From Candidatus Altimarinota bacterium (GTDB lineage Bacteria; Patescibacteriota; JACMRA01): a stretch of 35,206 nt of DNA. The stretch lies in contig JAAUSE010000006.1 in NCBI GenBank assembly GCA_012031925.1, positions 1 to 35,206 of the forward strand, written 5' to 3'. Shown in pieces: positions 15,462 through 35,206 of the stretch (positions are counted from its first letter, which is position 1; each line of letters begins with the position of its first letter). The translations under genes were made by a program, and so were the position numbers. The notes beneath the pieces were generated by a model. It ran no database searches, had not been told where the DNA came from, and worked only from the letters and a program-made list of their open reading frames with translations.

Positions 15462-18400
15462 CTAAATATTCCAATTATTTCCAGAAATATCAAAAAACTT
15501 ATTAAAATATTGAGTTAATTTTTCAAGCACAGTTTCTCGCTTTTTTGTTCGTTCACCAGTTTGCAAAAATCGTGATATTGGTGGTAAAATTTTACTAATA
15601 CTTGTTCCAGAAGTTACTACAAATCCATCTTTGAAAGCATTTTTAATATACAATAACGTTGCTTCTTTATCTAAGTTTTCCACTTCAATAATCTTATACA
15701 ACTCTTCAATTTTCTTTTTTTCTACAAATTCCCTCCAATCATCGTCTACATTTGCGTGAACATCAAGCGAGGCAATAAACTGATTGATAAGTTCTTTTTT
15801 ATTTCTAAGTTCCACACTGGAATCAATTGCTTTATTGATATCAATGAGTAGTTCTTTGTTTTCAGTATTACTGTCGTGATATTTTTTGATAAGTTCTAAC
15901 ACAAAATCAATAGTAATTTCCACTTGTTTGATAAGCTCCATTTCAAACACTATATCATCGTTCACATTTTCTTTCTCTACATTAGAATTTTGGCGATATT
16001 CATTATACAAATCAATGTATATACTATGATAGTCTTGTATGTCTCGAGGTGTTAACAATTCTTTACCTGTAAATTCATCAAAGGTAGTTAAAATATTTCT
16101 TACACGCAACAGAGAACCATACAAAGATATAAAGTCTTTTTGATTTTGCTCGCCGAGAATTCGCTTACCAACAGGAAAATTACTCGTTAGCTCTTCTACT
16201 AAGTTTTTATATCCTCTAACTTGCTGGTTCTCACTTACATATCCATCATAGTAATCTCTAAAAGATTTCAGTAGTACTATACCACTTGCTTCCTTGTCTC
16301 CAAATAAGGCTATCGCTTCGTTGGTAGCTTGTTCTAAGTTACGAAAACAAACGATATTTCCAAAGGTTTTGACACTATTTAGAATTCTATTTGTTCTAGA
16401 ATATGCTTGTACAAGCCCATGTAGACGCAAGTTTTTATCTACCCAAAGCGTATTGAGTGTGGTCGCGTCAAACCCTGTCAAAAACATATTTACTACAATC
16501 AAAATATCAATCTCCCGATTTTTTACCCGCAAACTAATATCTTTATAATAATTTTGAAATTTATCTGCCGAAGTATCATAAGAAGTTTTAAACATGGTAT
16601 TGTAATCTACAATCGCACTATCCAAAAAATCTCTAGAACTTACATCAAGCCCACTAGTATCTTCTGAATTTTCATCAACCATTATATCCGCCATTTCTCC
16701 GCTTTCTGCTTCGTTTACACCAAAGCTATAAATAACCGCTACTTTTAGTTTTTTATCACTTGGTAAATCAACCGTCTGCTTTTTAAATTCAGCATAATAC
16801 TTTTTGGCAACATCAATAGAAGAAACTGCAAAAATAGAATTAAACCCAGCCAGCCTTCTGTCATTTACTTTGTAAAAACTATTGCGTTTAGTTTTTTGGT
16901 CAAAGTGTTCTAAAATATACCTTACAATATTTCCCAATCGCTCTGGCGAAGACAGTACCGCTTCGCGATTAATATCACTTACCTTTTTGTCTTGAATATC
17001 CTCAGCTTCTTTAAAGGTAGAAATGTAATCAACCTTAAACGGCAATACGTTTTTGTCGGCGATTGCATTAACAATAGTATAGGTATGTAGTTTTTCACCA
17101 AATGCCTGCTCAGTAGTTCGCAAATTCACCAATCCACCAGAAGTAGAATTCTTAGCAAAAATAGGCGTACCAGTAAATCCAAACAAGTGATAGTTTTTAA
17201 ATGCTTTGGTAATAGCTTGGTGCATATCACCAAACTGACTGCGGTGACACTCATCAAAAATAATCACCATATGTCCACCAAAAATCTCATGACCTTTGTT
17301 TCCACCAATAAATCGATCCAGTTTTTGTATAGTGGTAATTATAATCTTTGACTCGGTATTTTCTAGTTGTTTTTTGAGAACCGATGTACTCGTGTTACTA
17401 TTAGCTGCACCTTTCTCAAACTTGTCGTACTCTTTCATGGTTTGGTAATCCAAGTCTTTCCTGTCAACCACAAACAAAACTTTATCTATATACGATAACT
17501 TACTCGCCAACTGTGCGGTCTTAAAACTAGTCAATGTTTTACCACTTCCTGTAGTGTGCCACACAAACCCACCAGCCTCCACGGTTCCCAAGTTTTTGTA
17601 GTTGGTACTTATCTCAATCCTATTTAAAATTCGCTCGGTTGCCACAATTTGATACGGCCTCATCACAAGCAGTAGTCTATCGGTTGTAAACACGCAATAC
17701 TTAGTCAAAATCTGCAAAATCGTGTGCTTAGCAAAAAACGTCTTAGCAAAATCCATCAAGTCGGTAATTGGTCGATTAGTGGCATCTGCCCACCAACTCG
17801 TAAACTCAAAGCTGTTACTAGTTTTTCGCCCCTTCTTGCTACTAGTTTTCCCCTTTTCTTTGATATGCTCTGCCCTTGTGGTGTTGCTGTAGTACTTGGT
17901 ATGGGTTCCATTGCTAATCACAAACAACTGCACGTACTCAAAAAGTCCACTGTCTGCCCAAAAACTTTCCCGTTTGTATCTGTTTATTTGATTAAACGCT
18001 TCCACGATTGGAACCCCACGGCGTTTGAGCTCCACGTGTATGAGTGGCAACCCGTTTACTAGCACCGTCACGTCATACCGATTTGCTCGCCGCCCTTCCT
18101 CGGTAGCGTATTGATTGATAACCTGCAAACTATTGTCGTGAATTGTATCCTTGCGTATGAGGTAAATATTTTTGCTTGACCCGTCATCCCGCAATAGGAT
18201 TTTGATATGATCTTCCTGAATAGTTGCCGTTTTATCCTCTATACTTTGATTGGGGTTGGCTATTTCGCTTTCAAAAAACCTTTTCCATTCATTGTCACTA
18301 AACACAATATCATTAAGTTTTTCCAATTGCCTGCGTAGGTTTGTAACCAAATCTTGTTCGGTAGTGAGGGCAATGTATTCATAGGCTTGAGTTTGTAGTT

Positions 18401-18533
18401 GCTTTATAAAAGCTTTCTCCAGCTCCGCTTCACTTTGGTAAGAAGTAGCTCGCTCGGTGGTTGATATGTACTCACTCACCACAGTACTTTGCGGGTTTTC
18501 GGCAACAAGTTTATAATTATTATTTTGTGACAT
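15462..18533 (-). CDS. hsdR: Type I restriction enzyme R subunit
   Basis: This 1023-residue motor and nuclease cuts unmodified DNA after translocation. The N-terminal PD-(D/E)xK nuclease has D154 (RYDVTV), E168-x-K170 (VELK) and the following QINRY. The SF2 helicase has Walker A TTGSGKT (327-333), DECH (427-430) and FGFTGTP, with motifs V/VI in DILIVVNMFLTGFDATTLN and QAYSRTNR. The C-terminal part (about 750-1023) is helical and binds the methylase. Length and motifs are complete, so it should be active. It starts 8 bases after fic and is the last gene of the operon, probably driven by the promoter at 19682-19710 as well as by readthrough. Confidence 0.97.
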   Translation of the reverse strand: MSQNNNYKLVAENPQSTVVSEYISTTERATSYQSEAELEKAFIKQLQTQAYEYIALTTEQDLVTNLRRQLEKLNDIVFSDNEWKRFFESEIANPNQSIEDKTATIQEDHIKILLRDDGSSKNIYLIRKDTIHDNSLQVINQYATEEGRRANRYDVTVLVNGLPLIHVELKRRGVPIVEAFNQINRYKRESFWADSGLFEYVQLFVISNGTHTKYYSNTTRAEHIKEKGKTSSKKGRKTSNSFEFTSWWADATNRPITDLMDFAKTFFAKHTILQILTKYCVFTTDRLLLVMRPYQIVATERILNRIEISTNYKNLGTVEAGGFVWHTTGSGKTLTSFKTAQLASKLSYIDKVLFVVDRKDLDYQTMKEYDKFEKGAANSNTSTSVLKKQLENTESKIIITTIQKLDRFIGGNKGHEIFGGHMVIIFDECHRSQFGDMHQAITKAFKNYHLFGFTGTPIFAKNSTSGGLVNLRTTEQAFGEKLHTYTIVNAIADKNVLPFKVDYISTFKEAEDIQDKKVSDINREAVLSSPERLGNIVRYILEHFDQKTKRNSFYKVNDRRLAGFNSIFAVSSIDVAKKYYAEFKKQTVDLPSDKKLKVAVIYSFGVNEAESGEMADIMVDENSEDTSGLDVSSRDFLDSAIVDYNTMFKTSYDTSADKFQNYYKDISLRVKNREIDILIVVNMFLTGFDATTLNTLWVDKNLRLHGLVQAYSRTNRILNSVKTFGNIVCFRNLEQATNEAIALFGDKEASGIVLLKSFRDYYDGYVSENQQVRGYKNLVEELTSNFPVGKRILGEQNQKDFISLYGSLLRVRNILTTFDEFTGKELLTPRDIQDYHSIYIDLYNEYRQNSNVEKENVNDDIVFEMELIKQVEITIDFVLELIKKYHDSNTENKELLIDINKAIDSSVELRNKKELINQFIASLDVHANVDDDWREFVEKKKIEELYKIIEVENLDKEATLLYIKNAFKDGFVVTSGTSISKILPPISRFLQTGERTKKRETVLEKLTQYFNKFFDISGNNWNI

Positions 18534-18541
18534 ATATGATT

Positions 18542-19670
18542 TTAGTTTTTATTAAATATATCGATATAACGTTTGTATATATAAGATTTTCCGTATGTTT
18601 GCTCAATGTCTTTTACCTCAAGTATTCCAAGATCCACTAGTCTATTAATGACATTTTGAGAACCTTGTCTGCTAAAGCCCGTCCAATCCTGAATTGTAGA
18701 AATTTTTACAATTGGCAAAGAAAACAAATATGGTAAGACCGTAATAGCACTTTCGGAAGCTGTTTTATTTAAAGTTTGAATCTTTAGCATATCCTCATAC
18801 CTTAGAGCTGTAATTTGTTGAACTGTTTCTATAGCTTCTTTTGCTACAGTAATAACTCCATCAAGATAAAAATCAAGCCACTTTTCAATTTTACCTTCGT
18901 GATAGTCATTTAATCTATCGTAATATGTTTGTTTGTGTTGTTTGAAATAAGATGAGAGGTAAAGAGTGGGTCTTTCAAGTAGCTTTGAATGTAACAAAAA
19001 TAAAGTAATCAAAAGCCTTCCAGTTCTACCATTACCATCCAAAAAAGGATGAAGTGTTTCAAATTGTGCGTGAATTAACCCAGCTTTTACAACTAAGTTA
19101 TAACTATCACTAGCATGAATAAATTGTTCCAAATCTCCAAGTGCTTTAATGAGATCACCAGGTGAAGGCGGTACAAATTCGGCATTATTTAAGTTTGTCC
19201 CACCGATCCAATTTTGGCTTTTGCGAAAATTTCCTGGGTCACTATAATGGCTGGTGCGTGCGTCTTTCATCAAAACCTCGTGTAACTCAGTAATAAATCT
19301 AAGGGAAATGGGGAATTTTTTTAGTCTTTCAATTCCGTAGTTTATTGCTTCAATATAATGATAAATATCATCAACATCGTCGTTTCTGTTAATCAGCTGC
19401 GTCTGTGCTTCGTATTCAATCGCATCTATAAATGTTGCCCTAGTCCCCTCTATTTGGTTTGAATTAGTAGCATCTTTACGAATATACATGGAAATAAAAA
19501 ATCCATATCAGGTAATAAAAGTGTTGATCCATCCAATTTTCCAATAATTCTTGTGGCTTCATTTATTTTTGAGTCAATGAACTATTGAAAGTACCCAAAT
19601 TATGAGGTGGAAAGGGTTCGGGTAAAAAGGATTTGTAGCCCGTAGTTTGATTAATATATGTTCCGATCAT
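18542..19670 (-). CDS. fic: Fic-domain AMP-transferase with C-terminal winged helix (two frameshifts)
   Basis: The catalytic motif HPFLDGNGRTGR is complete, so the protein should transfer AMP (or a similar group) to a target hydroxyl. The inhibitory motif SNQIEG sits in the N-terminal part (a class II Fic layout), and a winged helix (ISTIQDWTGFSRQGSQNVIN) ends the protein. An ATG at 19487 gives only 315 residues. Adding one base at the A run 19496-19501 and one at the T run 19566-19570 extends it upstream to ATG 19670 (MIGTYINQTTGYKSFLPEP, FPPHNLGTFNSSL), about 376 residues, as in full-length relatives. A consensus promoter 5 bases before this ATG supports that start. It lies between hsdS and hsdR; Fic proteins are recurrent passengers of type I loci, role uncertain. 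Confidence 0.9.
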
Positions 19671-19681
19671 AAAACTTTTAA

Positions 19682-19710
19682 ATTATAAACATTGTAACCA
19701 AACTTGTCAA
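19682..19710 (-). promoter_or_regulatory. Perfect consensus promoter for fic-hsdR
   Basis: On the minus strand TTGACA (19705-19710), a 17-base spacer and TATAAT (19682-19687), the only full consensus match I found in the window. The predicted start at about 19675 lies 5 bases before ATG 19670. Confidence 0.8.
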
Positions 19711-19752
19711 CGATTTCTTAAAACTGTGGACATTGTAACCAAACTTGTCAAC
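19689..19752 (-). repeat. Duplicated 23-bp element at the fic promoter (possible operator)
   Basis: An identical 23-bp sequence lies at 19689-19711 and 19730-19752, 41 bp apart. The first copy covers the -35 box and spacer of the fic promoter. The second has the TTGACA but no -10 box after it, so it is not simply a second promoter. The 41-bp period, about four helical turns, would suit a regulator bound at two sites on one face. Confidence 0.75.
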
Positions 19753-19765
19753 TATTTTGCTGTAA

Positions 19766-20974
19766 CTATCTTGGGACATATTCTTGGAAAGTTAAAAGTA
19801 AATTGCGGTAATATTCGTATTGAGATCGTCGGGAACGGAGTTCGGCAGAGAGACCAATACTAATATCATTAACCAAGGCATCAAACTTGTCGAGAATTGC
19901 CACAATCCGCTCTTGTTCTGATAATGGAGGAATTGGGATTTTGAATTTTTCAATTACAGTCCTTGATAACCTTGGCACACTTGCCCTTCTAACTCTAGAG
20001 AAGAAAAAAATCTCTTCCTTTTTCAAGTAATAAAATAAATATTTATTGTTTAATGTATTAGGACAAATTAAAGTAAAACAATCATCTGCCGCCCAAAAAT
20101 CAATTTTACTATAACCAACTGACCCAGCTGCACCAGCAGTAATAATAAATGTTGTATTAGCGTTATTATTATTTTTTTCATAATATCCAAGTGGTATCAT
20201 ACTATTTTGATAAACTGGAAAATCACCAATTGGATTAAGTTGTTTTTTGACTACACGAACTCCTCTTTTTAGGTTCACAATTTCTCCTAAGGTTTTCCAT
20301 TCTGCGTCTTTTTGGCTTGACAATAATTGCTCGCGGTAATACTCATATTGTTTCTTACGAGCCTCTAGCTCTGCCTCTAGCTCTGCCTCTAGCTCTGCCT
20401 CTAGCTCTGTGAAGTTATCCAATATCCTCACTATTTCTTGTTGAACCAACATCGGCGGCACCGGAACCTTAAATTTCTTTAGTTGTGTCATAGGAATACT
20501 AACAACTGTAGAGCCAGCTGATAGCTCAATTATTTTGCGAAGTGTGGTAACTGAGCTAATATAATATAGTAAATACTTAGAATTTAGTTTTGCTTGATCT
20601 GGCTTAATCACATACACACCTTCCTTAACATTCCAATTTGTTGGTGCGGTTTGAACAAGAGCAGTTTTACCAATTGTACCTGTGCCAGAAAATAAAACAT
20701 CTCCGACCTCAAGATTTGAACGATTATTAATTAACTTTAACCCTTCATCATTTACTTTATCCGTTTTGTCTAAAAATAATATGTTTATACCACCCAACTC
20801 TCGAACAGTCATGTAATAATTTTTAGCATCAGCTGTATTCAATCTAAAATTATTTCGAGGATTTAAGCCAGTTTTTAAAGATAATATTACCTCGCCAAGC
20901 TTCTTAAACTCGACCCCATCAGGACAAAGCTGGTTGATAAGTGTTTGTAAATGAGGTTGATGCTTTGGTGTCAT
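19766..20974 (-). CDS. hsdS: Type I restriction specificity subunit
   Basis: This 402-residue protein has two target recognition domains, each followed by a conserved helix. TRD1 is about residues 20-180 (opens FKKLGEVILSLKTGLNPR, ends KFKVPVPPMLVQQEIVRILD). TRD2 is about 225-370 (opens WKTLGEIVNLKRGVRV, ends KFKIPIPPLSEQERIVAILD). Each half recognises one side of a split DNA site and docks a methylase. The central helix holds four ELEA repeats before RKKQYEYYREQLL, the arrangement known in the EcoR124 family. It starts 3 bases after the OLD-like gene stop. Both halves look intact. Confidence 0.95.
   Translation of the reverse strand: MTPKHQPHLQTLINQLCPDGVEFKKLGEVILSLKTGLNPRNNFRLNTADAKNYYMTVRELGGINILFLDKTDKVNDEGLKLINNRSNLEVGDVLFSGTGTIGKTALVQTAPTNWNVKEGVYVIKPDQAKLNSKYLLYYISSVTTLRKIIELSAGSTVVSIPMTQLKKFKVPVPPMLVQQEIVRILDNFTELEAELEAELEAELEARKKQYEYYREQLLSSQKDAEWKTLGEIVNLKRGVRVVKKQLNPIGDFPVYQNSMIPLGYYEKNNNNANTTFIITAGAAGSVGYSKIDFWAADDCFTLICPNTLNNKYLFYYLKKEEIFFFSRVRRASVPRLSRTVIEKFKIPIPPLSEQERIVAILDKFDALVNDISIGLSAELRSRRSQYEYYRNLLLTFQEYVPR
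20361..20408 (-). repeat. Four 12-bp repeats encoding ELEA in the HsdS spacer
   Basis: Four exact head-to-tail copies of GCCTCTAGCTCT (plus strand) encode ELEA units in the helix between the two recognition domains. In EcoR124-type enzymes the count of such 4-residue units sets the length of the unspecific gap in the DNA site. Slippage would keep the frame. Confidence 0.92.
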
Positions 20975-20977
20975 ATA

Positions 20978-22617
20978 CTAAAATGGCATTTCAAAATCTA
21001 TATTTGTTTGAGGAATTGACGGCAAGTTTTCATACGTCTCTTTTTCATCATTACTTGAAAAAAGCAGAAAGTTTTTTAATACAGTTAAATCATTAGGTAT
21101 TTGATCAATTTTTATATTTTTAGCCCAATTTAAAGCATTTAATACTTTTTCCTTTTTTGTAGAAGAGTAGCCACATACAGTTTCAAAATCATAATCTAAT
21201 GGAATAGTTTTGTTCGAAATTTCTTCTTTTGTTAAATTTTCTAAAATCTTGTCAGTTGATTTCTTAGCTAAGTTCCTTGCATCCTCACTCTTTTTTGGAT
21301 CTTGATCGGTATCATATATTACTAAAAAATCAGAAATTCCAAGAAATTTACACACTTTTATAAAAAAAGGTATAAGATCTTTAGACTGGCAGTTTACTAT
21401 TGTGTAATTTATCTTTTTATTTTCTAACAAAACTTCAATTACATAAGGCAATGATTTTTCCTCAGTTTCACCCTCAACTAAAATCACCTTATCTGCAAAG
21501 AAAAGCTCATTTCGTTCATATGAAAATTTGGTTAGCAAATGTACTTTATTTTTTTCATTTTCATCAACTAATTCTGACAAGCTTCCTTGATTTGTCTTAT
21601 ATGTTCCATTAGCTCCTTTTTTTAACATTATTATGTTGTTTGCGTTATTTATTGATAAAAATAATGGTGAATGTGTGGTGTAAAATATCTGTGAGTTTTG
21701 AGAAATTTCGATAAAGGATTCATATAAACTTCTTTGAGCATTAGGAAATAAATACAATTCAGGTTCTTCAAATCCAAAAATTATATTTCCATTGCAATAT
21801 TTTGAATAAGCCTGAAAAATGGAAATAAGGACTAGGTTTTGTGTACCTGAACCGATTTCATTTATATTAAATATTTGATTACCTTCTTCAATTTGAATTT
21901 GCAAAGTTTTATAATACCATAAAGGATCATAAATATCTAGCTTTAAATTACAATGATTAGCATGTCCGTTTAAGTTACTATCCATTTTTTCCTTTAAAAT
22001 TGATTTAAATTTTGTGAAGGAGTATTTATTAGTTGCGTCTCCATCCAATAATTCTAACGGTTCTTTCATCAACTCCTTAAACTTACCTTCGTTCTCAATA
22101 TTTGTTCGAAAGTCTTCATCAATCTTTTTAAGAATTTTTCCAAGTAAAGTCCATTGGCTAATTGCGGTTTGTTTTTCAAGATTTCTATCAGCTGGTATGC
22201 AAATAAAGCTTATCTTACTTCTTATTTCCCCATTTCCATAAAACTCATTATCATTTTCATCATAAACTAAAAATTTAATTGAATTTCCACCATTATTATT
22301 AGTGCATGTAAGTTTAAACCTAGTTATTTCAACATTTCTTTTACTACCAGAAGTTGGTGTCAGATATACGCTTTCTAATTTTTGATCAAAAGAAATTTCG
22401 ATTTCAATTGTATTATTTGTGTCTCTGTTGTAAAAATCATCTCTTTTTAAAAAGCTCTTTCAGTGGGGTATGTTTCACCAAGTAAAATATTTATAGCTTT
22501 AAGAATATTAGATTTTCCACTACTATTTGCACCTACCAAAGCACATAATTCTGAAGGATCAAAGTCAATATTCTTTATCGATTTGAAATTTTTAATTTTT
22601 ATGTTTTTAATTTTCAT
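20978..22617 (-). CDS. OLD-family ATPase with C-terminal TOPRIM nuclease domain (one frameshift)
   Basis: The full protein is about 546 residues. It starts MKIKNIKIKNFKSIKNIDF with Walker A GANSSGKS (29-36). The frame breaks at the A run 22449-22453; one added base joins LLGETYPTERAF to LKRDDFYNRDTNN. Then come an ABC signature region (INEIGSGTQNLVL, near 250), Walker B IIFGFEEPELYLFP (about 277-290), a TTHSP switch, and a TOPRIM domain with VEGETEEKS (about 378) and YDTDQD (about 435). This is the layout of OLD nucleases and of the GajA subunit of Gabija; PARIS splits or fuses similar parts. No UvrD-like GajB is present. Its place between hsdM and hsdS, with 3-base gaps on both sides, means it is made together with the modification enzyme. 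Confidence 0.87.
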
Positions 22618-22620
22618 ATT

Positions 22621-24183
22621 CTAATTATTTCCTTCAATTTCCTTAACAATCTCATTAATAGCAATTCTAAGTTTGCTTTGTTTGGTTACTATTTGCTCAA
22701 TTTGGGCGTTTAGTACTGTAATATCAATTACCTCGCGGGTGTCTTTTTGCTCCACATAACTAGATACTGATAAATTGTAGTCGTTTTCGCCAATTAATTT
22801 GTTATCCACTAGCTTCGCGAAATGCTCTACATCTTCTCGCTTGGTAAATACTTCCAAAACTTGTTGACGATTAACTTCACTAAGTTTGTTTTTGTTGCCT
22901 CCGCGTACAAATGAACTAGAAGCATCTATAAATAAAGTTTTGTTGTCACTCTTGGATTTTTTGAGCACTACGATACACGTGGCGATTGTCGTCCCAAAAA
23001 ACAAATCGGGTGGAAGTTGAATTACCGCGTCCACGTAATTATTGTCTATCAAGTATTTACGGATTTTACCTTCTGCTCCACCACGATACAGAACACCTGG
23101 AAACTCAACTATTGCCGCCGTGCCGCTAGTTGAGAGCCATTTAAGCATATGCAAGGTAAACGCCAAATCAGCTTTGCTTTTGGGTGCGAGTACTCCAGCA
23201 AGTGAAAACCTAGGATCGTTGATCATGATTGGGTTACTATCTCCGTCCCACTTGATAGAATAGGGCGGATTAGACACAATAGCGTCAAATGGTTCGTCGT
23301 CCCAGTGTTTGGGATCAAGCAACGTATCACCATGAGCAATGTCAAATTTTTCGTAATTCACGTCATGCAAAAACATATTAATACGACACAAGTTATAGGT
23401 GGTGAGGTTGATCTCTTGACCATAAAACCCACCTCTTACATTATCTTTACCCAACACTTTGGCAAATTTGAGCAGCAAAGAACCAGACCCACAACAAGGA
23501 TCGTACACTTTATTAACTTCGGTTTTACCAACGGTAGTAATTTCGGCTAACAACTCACTTACTTCTTGCGGAGTGTAGTATTCTCCACCACTTTTACCTG
23601 CATTAGAGGCGTACATGGCCATCAAATATTCATACGCATCACCAAAAGCATCTATGGTATTATCGGCATATTCGCCCAATTTTAATTGACCAATCGCTTC
23701 CAAAAGTTTCACAAGTTGCTGGTTTCGCCGTTCTACAGTCGCCCCAAGTTTATTGGAATTAACATCGAGGTCATCAAAAAGTCCTTTTAAGTCTTCTTCA
23801 CTACTTGAGCCTTTGGCAGATAACTCAATATTATTAAAAACTGTTGTTAAGGTTTCGTTGAGATTGGAATCGGCGGGTGCCTTTTTACGTACATTTACAA
23901 AAAGTTCACTTGGCAAAATATAAAAACCTTTATCCGCCAACGTTTCAGTTCGCCCAAATTCCGCTGCTTCATCGGTAATGTTGGCATAATTGAATTCGGG
24001 GTGTAATTTTTGTTCTTCCTTATTAATATAGTTGGTAAGATTTTCACTTATAAAACGATAAAACAACATTCCAAGTACGTATTGTTTAAAGTCCCACCCA
24101 TCAATACTTCCACGTAAATCGTTTGCAATTTGCCAAATAGCTCTGTGAAGCTCGGCTCTTTCCTGTTCTTTGTGGTTGTTCAT
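22621..24183 (-). CDS. hsdM: Type I DNA N6-adenine methyltransferase M subunit
   Basis: This 520-residue protein has a helical HsdM N-terminal domain (WQIANDLRGSIDGWDFKQYV) and a class I methylase fold with motif I YDPCCGSGSLL (about 226-236) and the catalytic NPPY (about 306-309, in IVSNPPYSIKW). It transfers methyl from S-adenosylmethionine to adenine and protects host DNA; with HsdS it forms the core to which HsdR binds. It is the first gene of the defence operon. Upstream is TTGACA (24234-24239) without a convincing -10, so the promoter is unclear. Confidence 0.96.
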   Translation of the reverse strand: MNNHKEQERAELHRAIWQIANDLRGSIDGWDFKQYVLGMLFYRFISENLTNYINKEEQKLHPEFNYANITDEAAEFGRTETLADKGFYILPSELFVNVRKKAPADSNLNETLTTVFNNIELSAKGSSSEEDLKGLFDDLDVNSNKLGATVERRNQQLVKLLEAIGQLKLGEYADNTIDAFGDAYEYLMAMYASNAGKSGGEYYTPQEVSELLAEITTVGKTEVNKVYDPCCGSGSLLLKFAKVLGKDNVRGGFYGQEINLTTYNLCRINMFLHDVNYEKFDIAHGDTLLDPKHWDDEPFDAIVSNPPYSIKWDGDSNPIMINDPRFSLAGVLAPKSKADLAFTLHMLKWLSTSGTAAIVEFPGVLYRGGAEGKIRKYLIDNNYVDAVIQLPPDLFFGTTIATCIVVLKKSKSDNKTLFIDASSSFVRGGNKNKLSEVNRQQVLEVFTKREDVEHFAKLVDNKLIGENDYNLSVSSYVEQKDTREVIDITVLNAQIEQIVTKQSKLRIAINEIVKEIEGNN

Positions 24184-32289: not shown

Positions 32290-32826
32290 TCAAACTTTAG
32301 TTTTGTCAGTATTAGGAAAGGTTTGCTTAGGTATGGGCAAACTCAAAAATGGACAAAGTTTTTGCCATCCTTCACCAGAGATAATATCAATTAAAAGAAA
32401 ATTATCAGAGTTCTTGAAGTGTTTTTTAAGATTATTCAAATGCTCATCATAAACCATTGACCATACAGTATCATCAAATAGGTCAGTTCCATAAACTTGA
32501 TTTCGCCAAAATGCTAGTGTAGGTTGTAGTCTACCACCGCCAGCTTTTCGCACAAATTGATCTAACTTTTGCCAACTTTTGAGCCAAGAAGATTTTTCTC
32601 TAATAGTACAAATAAACTTAGCATCAGGGTACATCATATGTAGTTCCATATAAGAAGCAACTACCGGCGTATCAGCCATTACCTGAGCTTGATAACTAGC
32701 CAAAATAGGATCATTAGGGTAGTGTAATATTTTATTATAACCAAGGATACTCAAAGCTGTGCAAAGTGATTGAGTTCCAGTTCTACCAAGCCCCACAATA
32801 AAAATCTTTGCTCTAGTTAATGACAT
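32290..32826 (-). CDS. Sulfotransferase-like P-loop protein
   Basis: From ATG 32826 (MSLTRAKIFIVGLGRTGTQS) the 178-residue protein has a 5'-PSB loop GLGRTGTQS, then LCTALSILGYNKILHYP, FICTIREKSSWLKSW (3'-phosphate site with a conserved R) and DNFLLIDIISGEGWQKLCPF. This is the short Sulfotransfer_4/sulfotransferase-family plan. The acceptor is unknown. Its first 13 codons and promoter lie inside the 105-bp repeat, and a second, truncated start lies at 35038-35106. An earlier start near 32865 is unlikely since it would precede the -10 box. Confidence 0.85.
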   Translation of the reverse strand: MSLTRAKIFIVGLGRTGTQSLCTALSILGYNKILHYPNDPILASYQAQVMADTPVVASYMELHMMYPDAKFICTIREKSSWLKSWQKLDQFVRKAGGGRLQPTLAFWRNQVYGTDLFDDTVWSMVYDEHLNNLKKHFKNSDNFLLIDIISGEGWQKLCPFLSLPIPKQTFPNTDKTKV

Positions 32827-32892
32827 TTCGTTTACAACAATACACTTTCCGTAAAAAACTAGCAACTAATTTTTGATCATTCATCAAAATTT
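32787..32892. repeat. Direct repeat copy 1 (106 bp)
   Basis: It matches 35067-35171 base for base, except for A6 here against A5 there (about 32853-32858). It holds the promoter and first 13 codons of the sulfotransferase-like gene. Confidence 0.95.
32837..32865 (-). promoter_or_regulatory. Promoter for sulfotransferase-like gene
   Basis: TTGCTA (32860-32865), a 17-base spacer and TATTGT (32837-32842). The start is about 4 bases before ATG 32826. In the second copy the spacer is one base shorter. Confidence 0.5.
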
Positions 32893-32993
32893 TTTCAATT
32901 AATCAAAGTCTTATTTCCGTTTCTTTTGACAAATGTCTAAATAGATGGTAATATTAGCCTGTCCATTTAGGTTAATACTTTTGGAATTTACTT

Positions 32994-33965
32994 GTGAATA
33001 AAACAGTGGAGAACCTCCTCTCTTTACTTCAATCTCTTGTCTTTCCCTTCTCGCAGCCATCCGTGTATCGTCTCGATGATTGGCATGAAAGAATAACGTT
33101 AATAACACAGCTCAGTCTTTTACTTCAGGCTAAGGCAAGTGAATTTGCACTTGGTTTTTCCACACCATACAATAGGCACAGTGTCATATCATTGAGTGAT
33201 GTGCATGAAGAAGTTTTGAAGTTTACAGACTTTGAAATTTCATCAGTTCAACGCACCGCAATGCTGGACTATCAACCACTATTGGATTATGTGAAGGTTG
33301 ATAAAACGAACGTTGCAAATGAAGAGGTGGTGAATTTGTTTAGAGGTGTGGTTTCTGTTGAAAAACTTGCCATTTCTACATGTGCGCTTGCTATTATCAA
33401 ATACACATTGCCTATTCCAGTGGTGGTTGAGCTTGCTAACATCATTCGTGATGAGTGTTTACATTTGTTGAGTCTGTCACGTCTTATTGGGATTGATCCT
33501 CTTGAGGGTGGATGGATTACAAGCAAAAGAAACCTCGCCTGGCAACAACTGCTTAAATGTTCTTCTGCTTTAGAGCATGTGATGCTTGAACATTGCCTGT
33601 TTGAAGGCGAAGGATCGTTTTCAGCCAGTTACACAATTTATCTTGCAAACAAGTTGAATTTTCCAAATCCAGCGTTACAGGTAGTGAAGCGTATTGCTGA
33701 TGAAGAAAATCGTCACGCAACCTGTGGGTATTTTATAGCAAATATTCTTGCGACAGGAGATTCATATAGGATGGATTGGGCTCGAAAAGCAATAGTGCTT
33801 CTACGGGAAATTGAACCTTTGGATACTAGTGATGTAGTAAAGTTTCACAAGCAAACCATTGCTGAACGCATGCTCAATGATTTCGCCACAACTGGAGACT
33901 GGGTGAATGCAATTAAGCAAGTAACTTTTTATGCCACTCAAGCAGAACGAGGTATTATTGGCTAA
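32994..33965 (+). CDS. Ferritin-like di-iron protein (DUF455-like)
   Basis: This 323-residue helical protein has the four-helix di-iron ligand set: E123 (VSVEKLAIS), E154-x-x-H157 (RDECLH), E194 or E199 (ALEHVMLEH) and E238-x-x-H241 (ADEENRHATCGYF). Spacing and surrounding residues resemble DUF455 and related ferritin-like oxygen-activating proteins. The substrate is unknown. It starts with GTG at 32994, with only a weak GGA before it; TTGACA at 32926 may be its promoter. A strong terminator follows. Codons are less AT-rich than those of the neighbours. Confidence 0.75.
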   Translation: MNKTVENLLSLLQSLVFPFSQPSVYRLDDWHERITLITQLSLLLQAKASEFALGFSTPYNRHSVISLSDVHEEVLKFTDFEISSVQRTAMLDYQPLLDYVKVDKTNVANEEVVNLFRGVVSVEKLAISTCALAIIKYTLPIPVVVELANIIRDECLHLLSLSRLIGIDPLEGGWITSKRNLAWQQLLKCSSALEHVMLEHCLFEGEGSFSASYTIYLANKLNFPNPALQVVKRIADEENRHATCGYFIANILATGDSYRMDWARKAIVLLREIEPLDTSDVVKFHKQTIAERMLNDFATTGDWVNAIKQVTFYATQAERGIIG

Positions 33966-33971
33966 AATAAG

Positions 33972-34003
33972 CCCTCTTTGAATTTATCAAAGAGGGTGTT
34001 TTT
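33972..34003 (+). terminator. Strong terminator between convergent genes
   Basis: CCCTCTTTGA (33972-33981) pairs perfectly with TCAAAGAGGG (33987-33996), then TGTTTTT. It can serve the ferritin-like gene and, more weakly, the convergent DUF1543 gene. Confidence 0.9.
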
Positions 34004-34014
34004 CTATTGTATCA

Positions 34015-34512
34015 TCACTCTAGTATAATATAGCAGTTTTTAACCTGTATCTGTGTATTTCCTGCGTCAGGAATGAGATTGATGTTTTGTAGCTGTTCTG
34101 TTACATTTACACAATCTTCAACCTCTACAACTGAATCTGTATGTATTCCCTTGAAATTAAGACAGAATGTGTTTTTTGCTTTCTCAATAGCAGATTGTTT
34201 TGTTGGAGCAACCACAAATCCATTTTCATGGTATTCGGAAAATAAAGATGGAATCGTTGCTCCAAAATTTATAAACCAAAGATGGTTGCCGTGTGTGCTA
34301 TTTTTGTTGCTGCCAACATTAATTTTATATCCGTCAACTTTACTCACTTCTGCGATTGCGTCAATATGAACTCCTTCTGAGCTACCAAACCACAATTGGC
34401 GTATTTTTTCCTTGTGGTGTTCAACTTTTTCAGCTACGATAAACACTACATCATGTACTTCGATATTTGCATGCTCTGCCCGACCACCTAGATACAAAGC
34501 AAAAAGTTTCAT
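34015..34512 (-). CDS. DUF1543 protein
   Basis: This 165-residue protein starts MKLFALYLGGRAEHANIEVH and follows the DUF1543 pattern (VVFIVAEKVEHHKEKIRQLW, FGSSEGVHIDAIAEVSKVDG). A second, weaker copy follows (GFVVAPTKQSAIEKA, NFKGIHTDSVVEVED), so there are two tandem modules. The family is cytoplasmic and has no known function. It is convergent with the ferritin-like gene and divergent from the UDG-like gene; the 59-base gap to the latter holds an AT-rich divergent promoter region. Confidence 0.85.
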   Translation of the reverse strand: MKLFALYLGGRAEHANIEVHDVVFIVAEKVEHHKEKIRQLWFGSSEGVHIDAIAEVSKVDGYKINVGSNKNSTHGNHLWFINFGATIPSLFSEYHENGFVVAPTKQSAIEKAKNTFCLNFKGIHTDSVVEVEDCVNVTEQLQNINLIPDAGNTQIQVKNCYIILE

Positions 34513-34571
34513 GGAGTAACCTCTAGTATTTCAGTAAAGCAATCTTAAATATATTTCTTAAATATAAAAAT

Positions 34572-35081
34572 ATGTCAAAACAAATCTTATTCATTGGACA
34601 AGCACTTCCCGCGACTCCCGCACCTTATCCTTTTGCCCGTTCACGTCTCTATAAATGGTTTGCGTCAATACAAATAGATAAAGATACACTGCTTGATATA
34701 AGTCAGTTTAATGCAGTGTTGGACTATTTCCCAGGAAAGTATGGTAAAGCAGATAGAGCACCAAATTGGAACGATATACTTGAAAATAGAGAGCGATTGT
34801 ATAATCTTGTACAGGCTGTAAATCCCCATGTGATTGTTGGTATAGGAAAGATTGCAACACAAGCTCTCTTGTATTCACAGAAGCCCGTGGATTTGAAATC
34901 CGTGGTTGGTACATTGTTTCAGACTGAACCGTTTGGGCTTGGAGATATAAACTATGATGTCGTTATCTTACCTCACCCGTCAGGATTGAGTACGTGGGTG
35001 TACCAAGAGGATAACATGGAGCGATTAAATGCGTCACTTAAGTTGATCGCTTCTGCTCTCTCAATACAAGCCCCACAATAA
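34572..35081 (+). CDS. Uracil-DNA glycosylase superfamily-like protein
   Basis: This 169-residue protein has a UDG-like core: ILFIGQALPATPAPYPFARS (water-activating loop region), a central strand HVIVGIGKIATQALL and the HPSG motif (VVILPHPSGLSTWV) that contacts DNA in this fold. Family 4/5 iron-sulphur cysteines are absent. Enzymes of this type remove uracil or damaged bases; catalysis here is not certain because the first loop lacks the usual acid. The stop lies inside the right repeat (last codons CAA GCC CCA CAA), so the natural C-terminus may have been cut and replaced at the junction. Confidence 0.68.
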   Translation: MSKQILFIGQALPATPAPYPFARSRLYKWFASIQIDKDTLLDISQFNAVLDYFPGKYGKADRAPNWNDILENRERLYNLVQAVNPHVIVGIGKIATQALLYSQKPVDLKSVVGTLFQTEPFGLGDINYDVVILPHPSGLSTWVYQEDNMERLNASLKLIASALSIQAPQ

Positions 35082-35106
35082 AAATCTTTGCTCTAGTTAA
35101 TGACAT
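35038..35106 (-). pseudogene. Truncated start of the sulfotransferase-like gene
   Basis: The second repeat copy restarts the gene (MSLTRAKIFIVGL) and then runs into unrelated sequence and a stop at 35038. It is a 22-codon stub that still carries the promoter. It shows that the repeat came from the gene at 32290-32826, or that the two share a target. Confidence 0.8.
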
Positions 35107-35171
35107 TTCGTTTACAACAATACACTTTCCGTAAAAACTAGCAACTAATTTTTGATCATTCATCAAAATTT
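35067..35171. repeat. Direct repeat copy 2 (105 bp)
   Basis: The partner of 32787-32892. After it, 35172-35206 differs from the flank of copy 1 and holds a small inverted repeat, TTGATG...CATCAA, at about 35174-35195. No gene is seen in the last 35 bases. Confidence 0.95.
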
Positions 35172-35206
35172 GTTTTGATGCAACCTTTTACATCAAGATG
35201 TTTCAA

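Follow-up and report, generated by a model that had tools for sequence, protein, structure and literature searches.

The right end of the analysed stretch of DNA (the window: the entire 35,206-bp contig C22 of a 1.07-Mb draft genome in 51 contigs, 80.6% complete) carries a three-gene cargo block lying between two direct copies of the start of a host sulfotransferase-like gene. We read this arrangement, at slightly less than even confidence, as the scar of a recent gene acquisition in which additive homologous recombination would have placed a foreign block upstream of the sulfotransferase gene. The repeat, the gene-start stub on its far side, the foreign cargo, the fact that different sequence follows each repeat copy on the right, and similar segments in this genome and its family were all observed directly. 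The host probably belongs to the candidate phyla radiation; its relatives have small genomes, mostly 0.5-1.1 Mb, and the nearest of those compared belong to other genera of the family.

Anatomy of the repeat-flanked block

The two repeat copies lie in the same orientation at a spacing of 2,280 bp (Table 1) and align through 71 exactly matching bp, a single additional A in copy 1 (A6 versus A5) and another 34 exact bp, containing zero substitutions and a homopolymer indel as their sole difference. Chance is ruled out as the source of a match this long. No similarity was detected beyond the repeat edges when the flanks of copy 1 and copy 2 were compared, and no third copy of the 105-bp repeat was found elsewhere in the ~98% of the genome compared. 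The 35 bases to the right of copy 2 differ from those to the right of copy 1, giving the repeat two distinct right-hand neighbours. The single-strand fold of the repeat was ordinary (z -1.4), and a search for structured RNA gave no Rfam match.

Both copies contain the sulfotransferase start codon (ATG) and 13 codons of that gene, which starts at 32826 on the minus strand. A sequence-only reading of the window had already described direct repeats of ~105 bp with a one-base difference in an A run, 13 gene-start codons in each, a stub at the second copy and no integrase in the insert; alignment and inspection of the open reading frames bore out all of these points, revealing a stub of 22 codons and neither an integrase nor a transposase ORF in the insert. 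That reading had also placed a promoter in both copies, which found no support, as the lone promoter-like match of the minus strand, at 32898 to 32869, overruns the repeat edge and the promoter scan returned no more sites than shuffled sequence.

The insert (32893-35066) holds three genes, encoding a ferritin-like, a DUF1543 and a uracil-DNA-glycosylase-like (UDG-like) protein. The UDG-like protein scored 42.5 bits against the curated PF03167 cut-off of 24.3 and shared 29% identity with a Cellulophaga phage UDG; because this distant relative stops at the equivalent position, the UDG-like core looks complete. By contrast, the ferritin-like protein fell below its family cut-off, scoring 17.9 bits against PF04305 (DUF455) with a curated cut-off of 34.3, and the only ferritin support beyond this weak match comes from two ExxH motifs. 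A fold search with the ferritin-like protein was dropped, its structure model being unusable (mean pLDDT 41). PADLOC gave no defence-system match. The earlier description of a "DNA-repair and oxidative-stress-like set" thus draws on a solid UDG superfamily domain, beside a weak DUF455-like match (E 0.0024) and a DUF1543 protein without known function.

Table 1 Features at the right end of the window and repeat pairs elsewhere in the genome and in a sister genus
Feature	Position	Strand	Details
Host sulfotransferase-like gene, intact	32290..32826	-	PF17784 E 5.4e-33; host-like codon usage; 5' end inside repeat copy 1
Direct repeat copy 1	32787..32892	+	106 bp; 13 sulfotransferase codons and upstream DNA
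Promoter-like site, left end of insert	32926..32954	+	TTGACA-17-TAATAT with TG; upstream of ferritin-like gene; consensus match 10/12 only; scan count not above shuffles
Cargo gene 1, ferritin-like protein	32994..33965	+	323 aa; GTG start; two ExxH motifs (residues 154, 238); DUF455 match under cut-off, E 0.0024
Terminator-like stem with T tail	33971..33997	tail on +	11-bp stem; cargo genes 1 and 2 converge on it
Cargo gene 2, DUF1543 protein	34015..34512	-	165 aa; PF07566 E 8.9e-29
Cargo gene 3, uracil-DNA-glycosylase superfamily protein	34572..35081	+	PF03167 E 8.9e-11; copy 2 supplies last four codons and stop
Sulfotransferase-start stub, from copy 2	35038..35106	-	22 codons
Direct repeat copy 2	35067..35171	+	105 bp; within last 140 bases of contig
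Bases after copy 2	35172..35206	+	35 bases; no match elsewhere in genome; candidate original upstream neighbour of sulfotransferase gene
Repeat pair, this genome	C44 9488-9759/11502-11772		272 bp, 96%
Repeat pair, this genome	C21 823-979/5266-5421		157 bp, 95%; RelA/SpoT gene 3' end and stub
Repeat pair, this genome	C13 1764-1902/5683-5823		141 bp, 91%; N6_Mtase and Methylase_S genes (type I restriction-modification) between the copies
Repeat pair, this genome	C44 21269-21354/22167-22252		86 bp, 92%; GmrSD/HNH gene 3' end and stub
Repeat pair, G002 (sister genus, same family)	C15:32576-33696 (L248:12576-13696)		133-bp copy, 94%, of phosphoketolase promoter and first codons, 988 bp upstream of gene
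Repeat pair, G002	C8		75 bp, 91%; PIN-like-gene 3' end
Repeat pair, G002	C14:12158-13256 (L226)		136 bp, 100%, 963 bp apart; apparent polymorphic-toxin locus

Composition and distribution of the cargo

The cargo has a GC content of 0.382, at the 97th percentile among same-length windows of the genome, in agreement with the richer base composition claimed for it from the letters alone, and its tetranucleotide distance lies at the 97.5th percentile of such windows. In codon usage the ferritin-like and UDG genes fall in the 3-4% tail and DUF1543 deviates more mildly, with the sulfotransferase gene being typical. A search for the same three genes in other genomes, which the sequence-only reading had proposed as a check, found them nearly absent among 380 genomes of the phylum: the UDG gene occurred in none of the others, DUF1543 exceeded its cut-off in this genome only, and the ferritin-like protein gave just 2 marginal matches, apart from which the viral, plasmid and phage collections and the genome scan contained no relative of it. 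A 73-bp blastn match had pointed to a DUF1543 relative in a same-family genome (G003), which was rejected as no DUF1543 ORF is present there.

Outside the phylum, DUF1543 was found in Pseudomonadota, Chlamydiae, cyanobacteria and Bacteroidetes at identities of at most 46%. The idea that the three genes form a known module was rejected, since none of 80 DUF1543 loci had a ferritin-like or UDG relative nearby. The viral, phage and plasmid collections held no close relative of the cargo, containing only distant relatives of DUF1543 and UDG without the gene set, and the collections and loci searched yielded neither a donor nor any cargo relative sharing these borders. The atypical composition of the cargo, together with its near absence from the phylum, therefore marks the block as foreign.

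This foreign character bears on a reading in which the cargo is old and only the duplication is new, the block having already resided upstream of the gene when 105 bp were carried across it by a local tandem duplication or a template switch and the rest was then lost. Such a history would produce the same end structure, and replication slippage over 2.3 kb may be possible, but it requires several steps, a breakpoint hitting the UDG gene end by chance, and leaves the foreign cargo unaccounted for, making it in our view very unlikely.

Contig end and assembly quality

The contig stops 35 bases past copy 2, and the entire second copy lies within its last 140 bases. Stretches covering about 98% of the genome were examined, and each of the 102 contig ends was compared against it. 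Some contig ends share exact overlaps of 127 bp, which suggests that the final assembly k-mer was 127, longer than the 105-bp repeat. Contig ends overlap one-to-one in 21 cases, over about 200-295 bp each. Across these 4,857 columns, 51 homopolymer indels stand beside 13 indels of other kinds and 3 substitutions, an error type like that of Ion Torrent data. A published study built bins of this radiation from Ion Torrent single reads reassembled with SPAdes (PMC4821891); the present genome has only a possible link to it. The overlap error amounts to 1.10 homopolymer indels per 105 bp, equal to what separates the two repeat copies. Because sequencing error alone yields as much, the one-base A-run difference is uninformative on age, and we rejected it as evidence of how recently the copies arose.

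Since all of copy 2 and its junction fall within a contig terminus of read quality, they could be the product of a chimeric read, and support for the far junction may come from few reads. On this account, the last 140 bases would go back to a single chimeric or misjoined read, or to a few of them, the cargo would really continue elsewhere, and the repeat with the last 35 bases would represent the same upstream region in another allele. The position of the second copy, the match between copy divergence and contig-end error, and the Ion Torrent-like error type, with such reads having been used for bins of the same radiation, all speak for it. However, other contig ends that match elsewhere mostly terminate within the match, whereas copy 2 was traversed and followed by 35 unique bases. 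Moreover, the repeat is shorter than the inferred k-mer, the different right-hand neighbour requires a second allele besides a single chimera, and comparable structures occur in contig interiors. We consequently regard an artefact as somewhat unlikely though a serious contender, and clearly favour a real insertion over it. The misassembly caveat of the sequence-only reading has accordingly become sharper than supposed, with copy 2 confined to the last 140 bases, but is tempered by a contig that passes beyond the repeat.

Two further observations concern the assembly. The last 127-mer of the contig begins at an A run, but the 102 contig ends show no enrichment of this kind, and the idea that contig ends are set by homopolymer branches was rejected. 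The 21 contig-end overlaps remain unmerged owing to homopolymer indels (for example, C22:1-293 with C29:1-293, C29 adjoining the window on its left side), which means that the assembly is improvable.

Similar segments, mechanism and known systems

We scanned for two-copy direct repeats of at least 60 bp, 0.3-12 kb apart and at least 80% identical. In contig interiors of this genome, four other segments of 0.9-4.4 kb are flanked by two-copy repeats of 86-272 bp with 91-96% identity (Table 1); of these four (loci L148, L126, L118 and L182), three hold a gene 3' end and a stub. The sister genus G002 has such loci in contig interiors as well, and at its contig C15 the phosphoketolase gene is intact, with a methyltransferase gene between the extra copy and the gene, an anatomy like that of the window. 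Across these similar loci, the repeats range from 75 to 272 bp, their sequences differ, and either the 5' or the 3' gene end is used, with no shared border motif visible across the compared loci. Under a stricter count of exactly two copies, 0.5-6 kb apart and 85% identical or better, this genome has 6 pairs in 1.05 Mb (one of them lectin-like paralogues) and G002 has 6 in 0.75 Mb, as against 1 in 0.4 Mb for G021 and 0 in 0.4 Mb for G010, so that the family may be enriched in such pairs, in a small sample of differing assembly types. Direct repeats at C15 and C23 of this genome were set apart as a different kind, being tandem lectin-like paralogous genes.

Other repeats and loci were noted in passing. 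A dispersed repeat family of ~120 bp has some 20 copies in the genome (C19:941-1058, C19:5696-5814, C43:22708-22821 and C45:4841-4954). Judging from translations only, the window contains at 15462-24183 an apparent type I restriction-modification locus with helicase-, specificity- and methylase-like ORFs, among which lie Fic-like and ATPase-like genes.

Many attachment sites within genes leave the host gene intact. Site-specific integration would accordingly explain the preserved sulfotransferase gene if a small non-autonomous element carried an attachment site copying the target gene start and were served by a recombinase in trans, and one tyrosine recombinase is indeed encoded in the genome, on contig C47. 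However, at 311 aa this single recombinase has the size of a Xer protein and lies on a separate contig, the insert has no integrase, and the other loci vary in repeat sequence, length and gene end without a common border motif, rendering the proposal highly improbable. The alternative raised in the sequence-only reading, an element making an unusually long target duplication, is likewise unlikely in view of the 75-272-bp range of repeat lengths, the missing border motif and the lack of a transposase; the hallmarks of a transposon (transposase, terminal inverted repeats and a short target duplication) are absent here, the duplication being 105 bp. Taken together, the motif-less borders, the varied repeats, the use of either gene end and an Xer-size recombinase located elsewhere argue against a single integrase and for recombination guided by donor homology.

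In the favoured reading of additive homologous recombination, the donor would be circular or tandem DNA comprising the cargo and at least 105 bp identical to the sulfotransferase gene start. One crossover between donor and chromosome would then yield the order gene, repeat, cargo, repeat and original upstream DNA, retaining an intact host gene and leaving the stub at the distal copy. The two copies could recombine in RecA fashion and so loop the cargo out again, making the insertion probably reversible. In this scenario the form of the donor (circle or tandem), the part played by RecA, the direction of change (a gain, not a loss) and reversibility are inferred. The single crossover already proposed from the letters fits the anatomy of near-equal copies with an intact gene and a stub, but is unproven, and a 2.28-kb circle would have no replication gene, which speaks against a circular donor. 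The broader insertion reading is the best supported, by a cargo nearly absent from the phylum, two right-hand neighbours and similar interior segments. The favoured reading does not account for the donor's possession of a sequence identical to the start of the host gene.

No circle is needed if the block entered through homology-facilitated illegitimate recombination during natural transformation, in which a linear donor would pair at the gene start and its other end would join without homology upstream on the sister chromatid, duplicating 105 bp. The genome encodes the competence protein ComEC, the borders share no common motif, and interchromatid duplications are known: transformation of Streptococcus pneumoniae gives rise to tandem duplications (merodiploids) in which resident genes are duplicated (PMC3784515). 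Those published duplications are, however, far larger (about 100-900 kb), this route too requires a donor in which the cargo already adjoins the host gene start, and ComEC is the one gene that points to competence in this organism. We thus consider this route unlikely.

Returning to homologous addition, we speculate, with a good deal less confidence than for the single locus, that the family repeatedly gains genes by integrase-free additive recombination duplicating 75-270 bp of a neighbouring gene end, keeping the host gene whole and the cargo cleanly losable; the present insert would be among the youngest, and more diverged ones would persist in the same genome and the sister genus. Gene gain is poorly known in bacteria with very small, probably host-dependent genomes. 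If real, such segments of graded age with duplicated gene ends would constitute a readable record of integrase-free gene gain, each predicting an empty site and a loop-out circle. Should the far junction fail, the locus would instead serve as a warning on contig ends in assemblies with homopolymer errors.

Among known systems, the insert is a long-repeat example of the repeat-flanked variable segments of bacterial genomes, in which 10-18% of variable segments are repeat-flanked and 66-94% of the repeats are shorter than 30 bp (Genome Biol 2010, PMC2884548). It shares with them a short gene-bearing segment, direct repeats at the base and an expected loss by recombination, but its repeat is longer, at 105 bp, and copies a gene start, and it is known from the occupied site only. 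Similar to Campbell-type integration, the insert lies between direct copies of shared homology with one intact gene and one stub, but here with no circle, replication gene or selectable vector. The S. pneumoniae merodiploids (PMC3784515) likewise involve duplication by recombination of incoming DNA at repeated sequence, whereas the present insert duplicates 105 bp around foreign cargo. Finally, genomic islands at attachment sites resemble it in having direct repeats that spare the target gene, from which it differs by its lack of an integrase and of a core common to the other loci.
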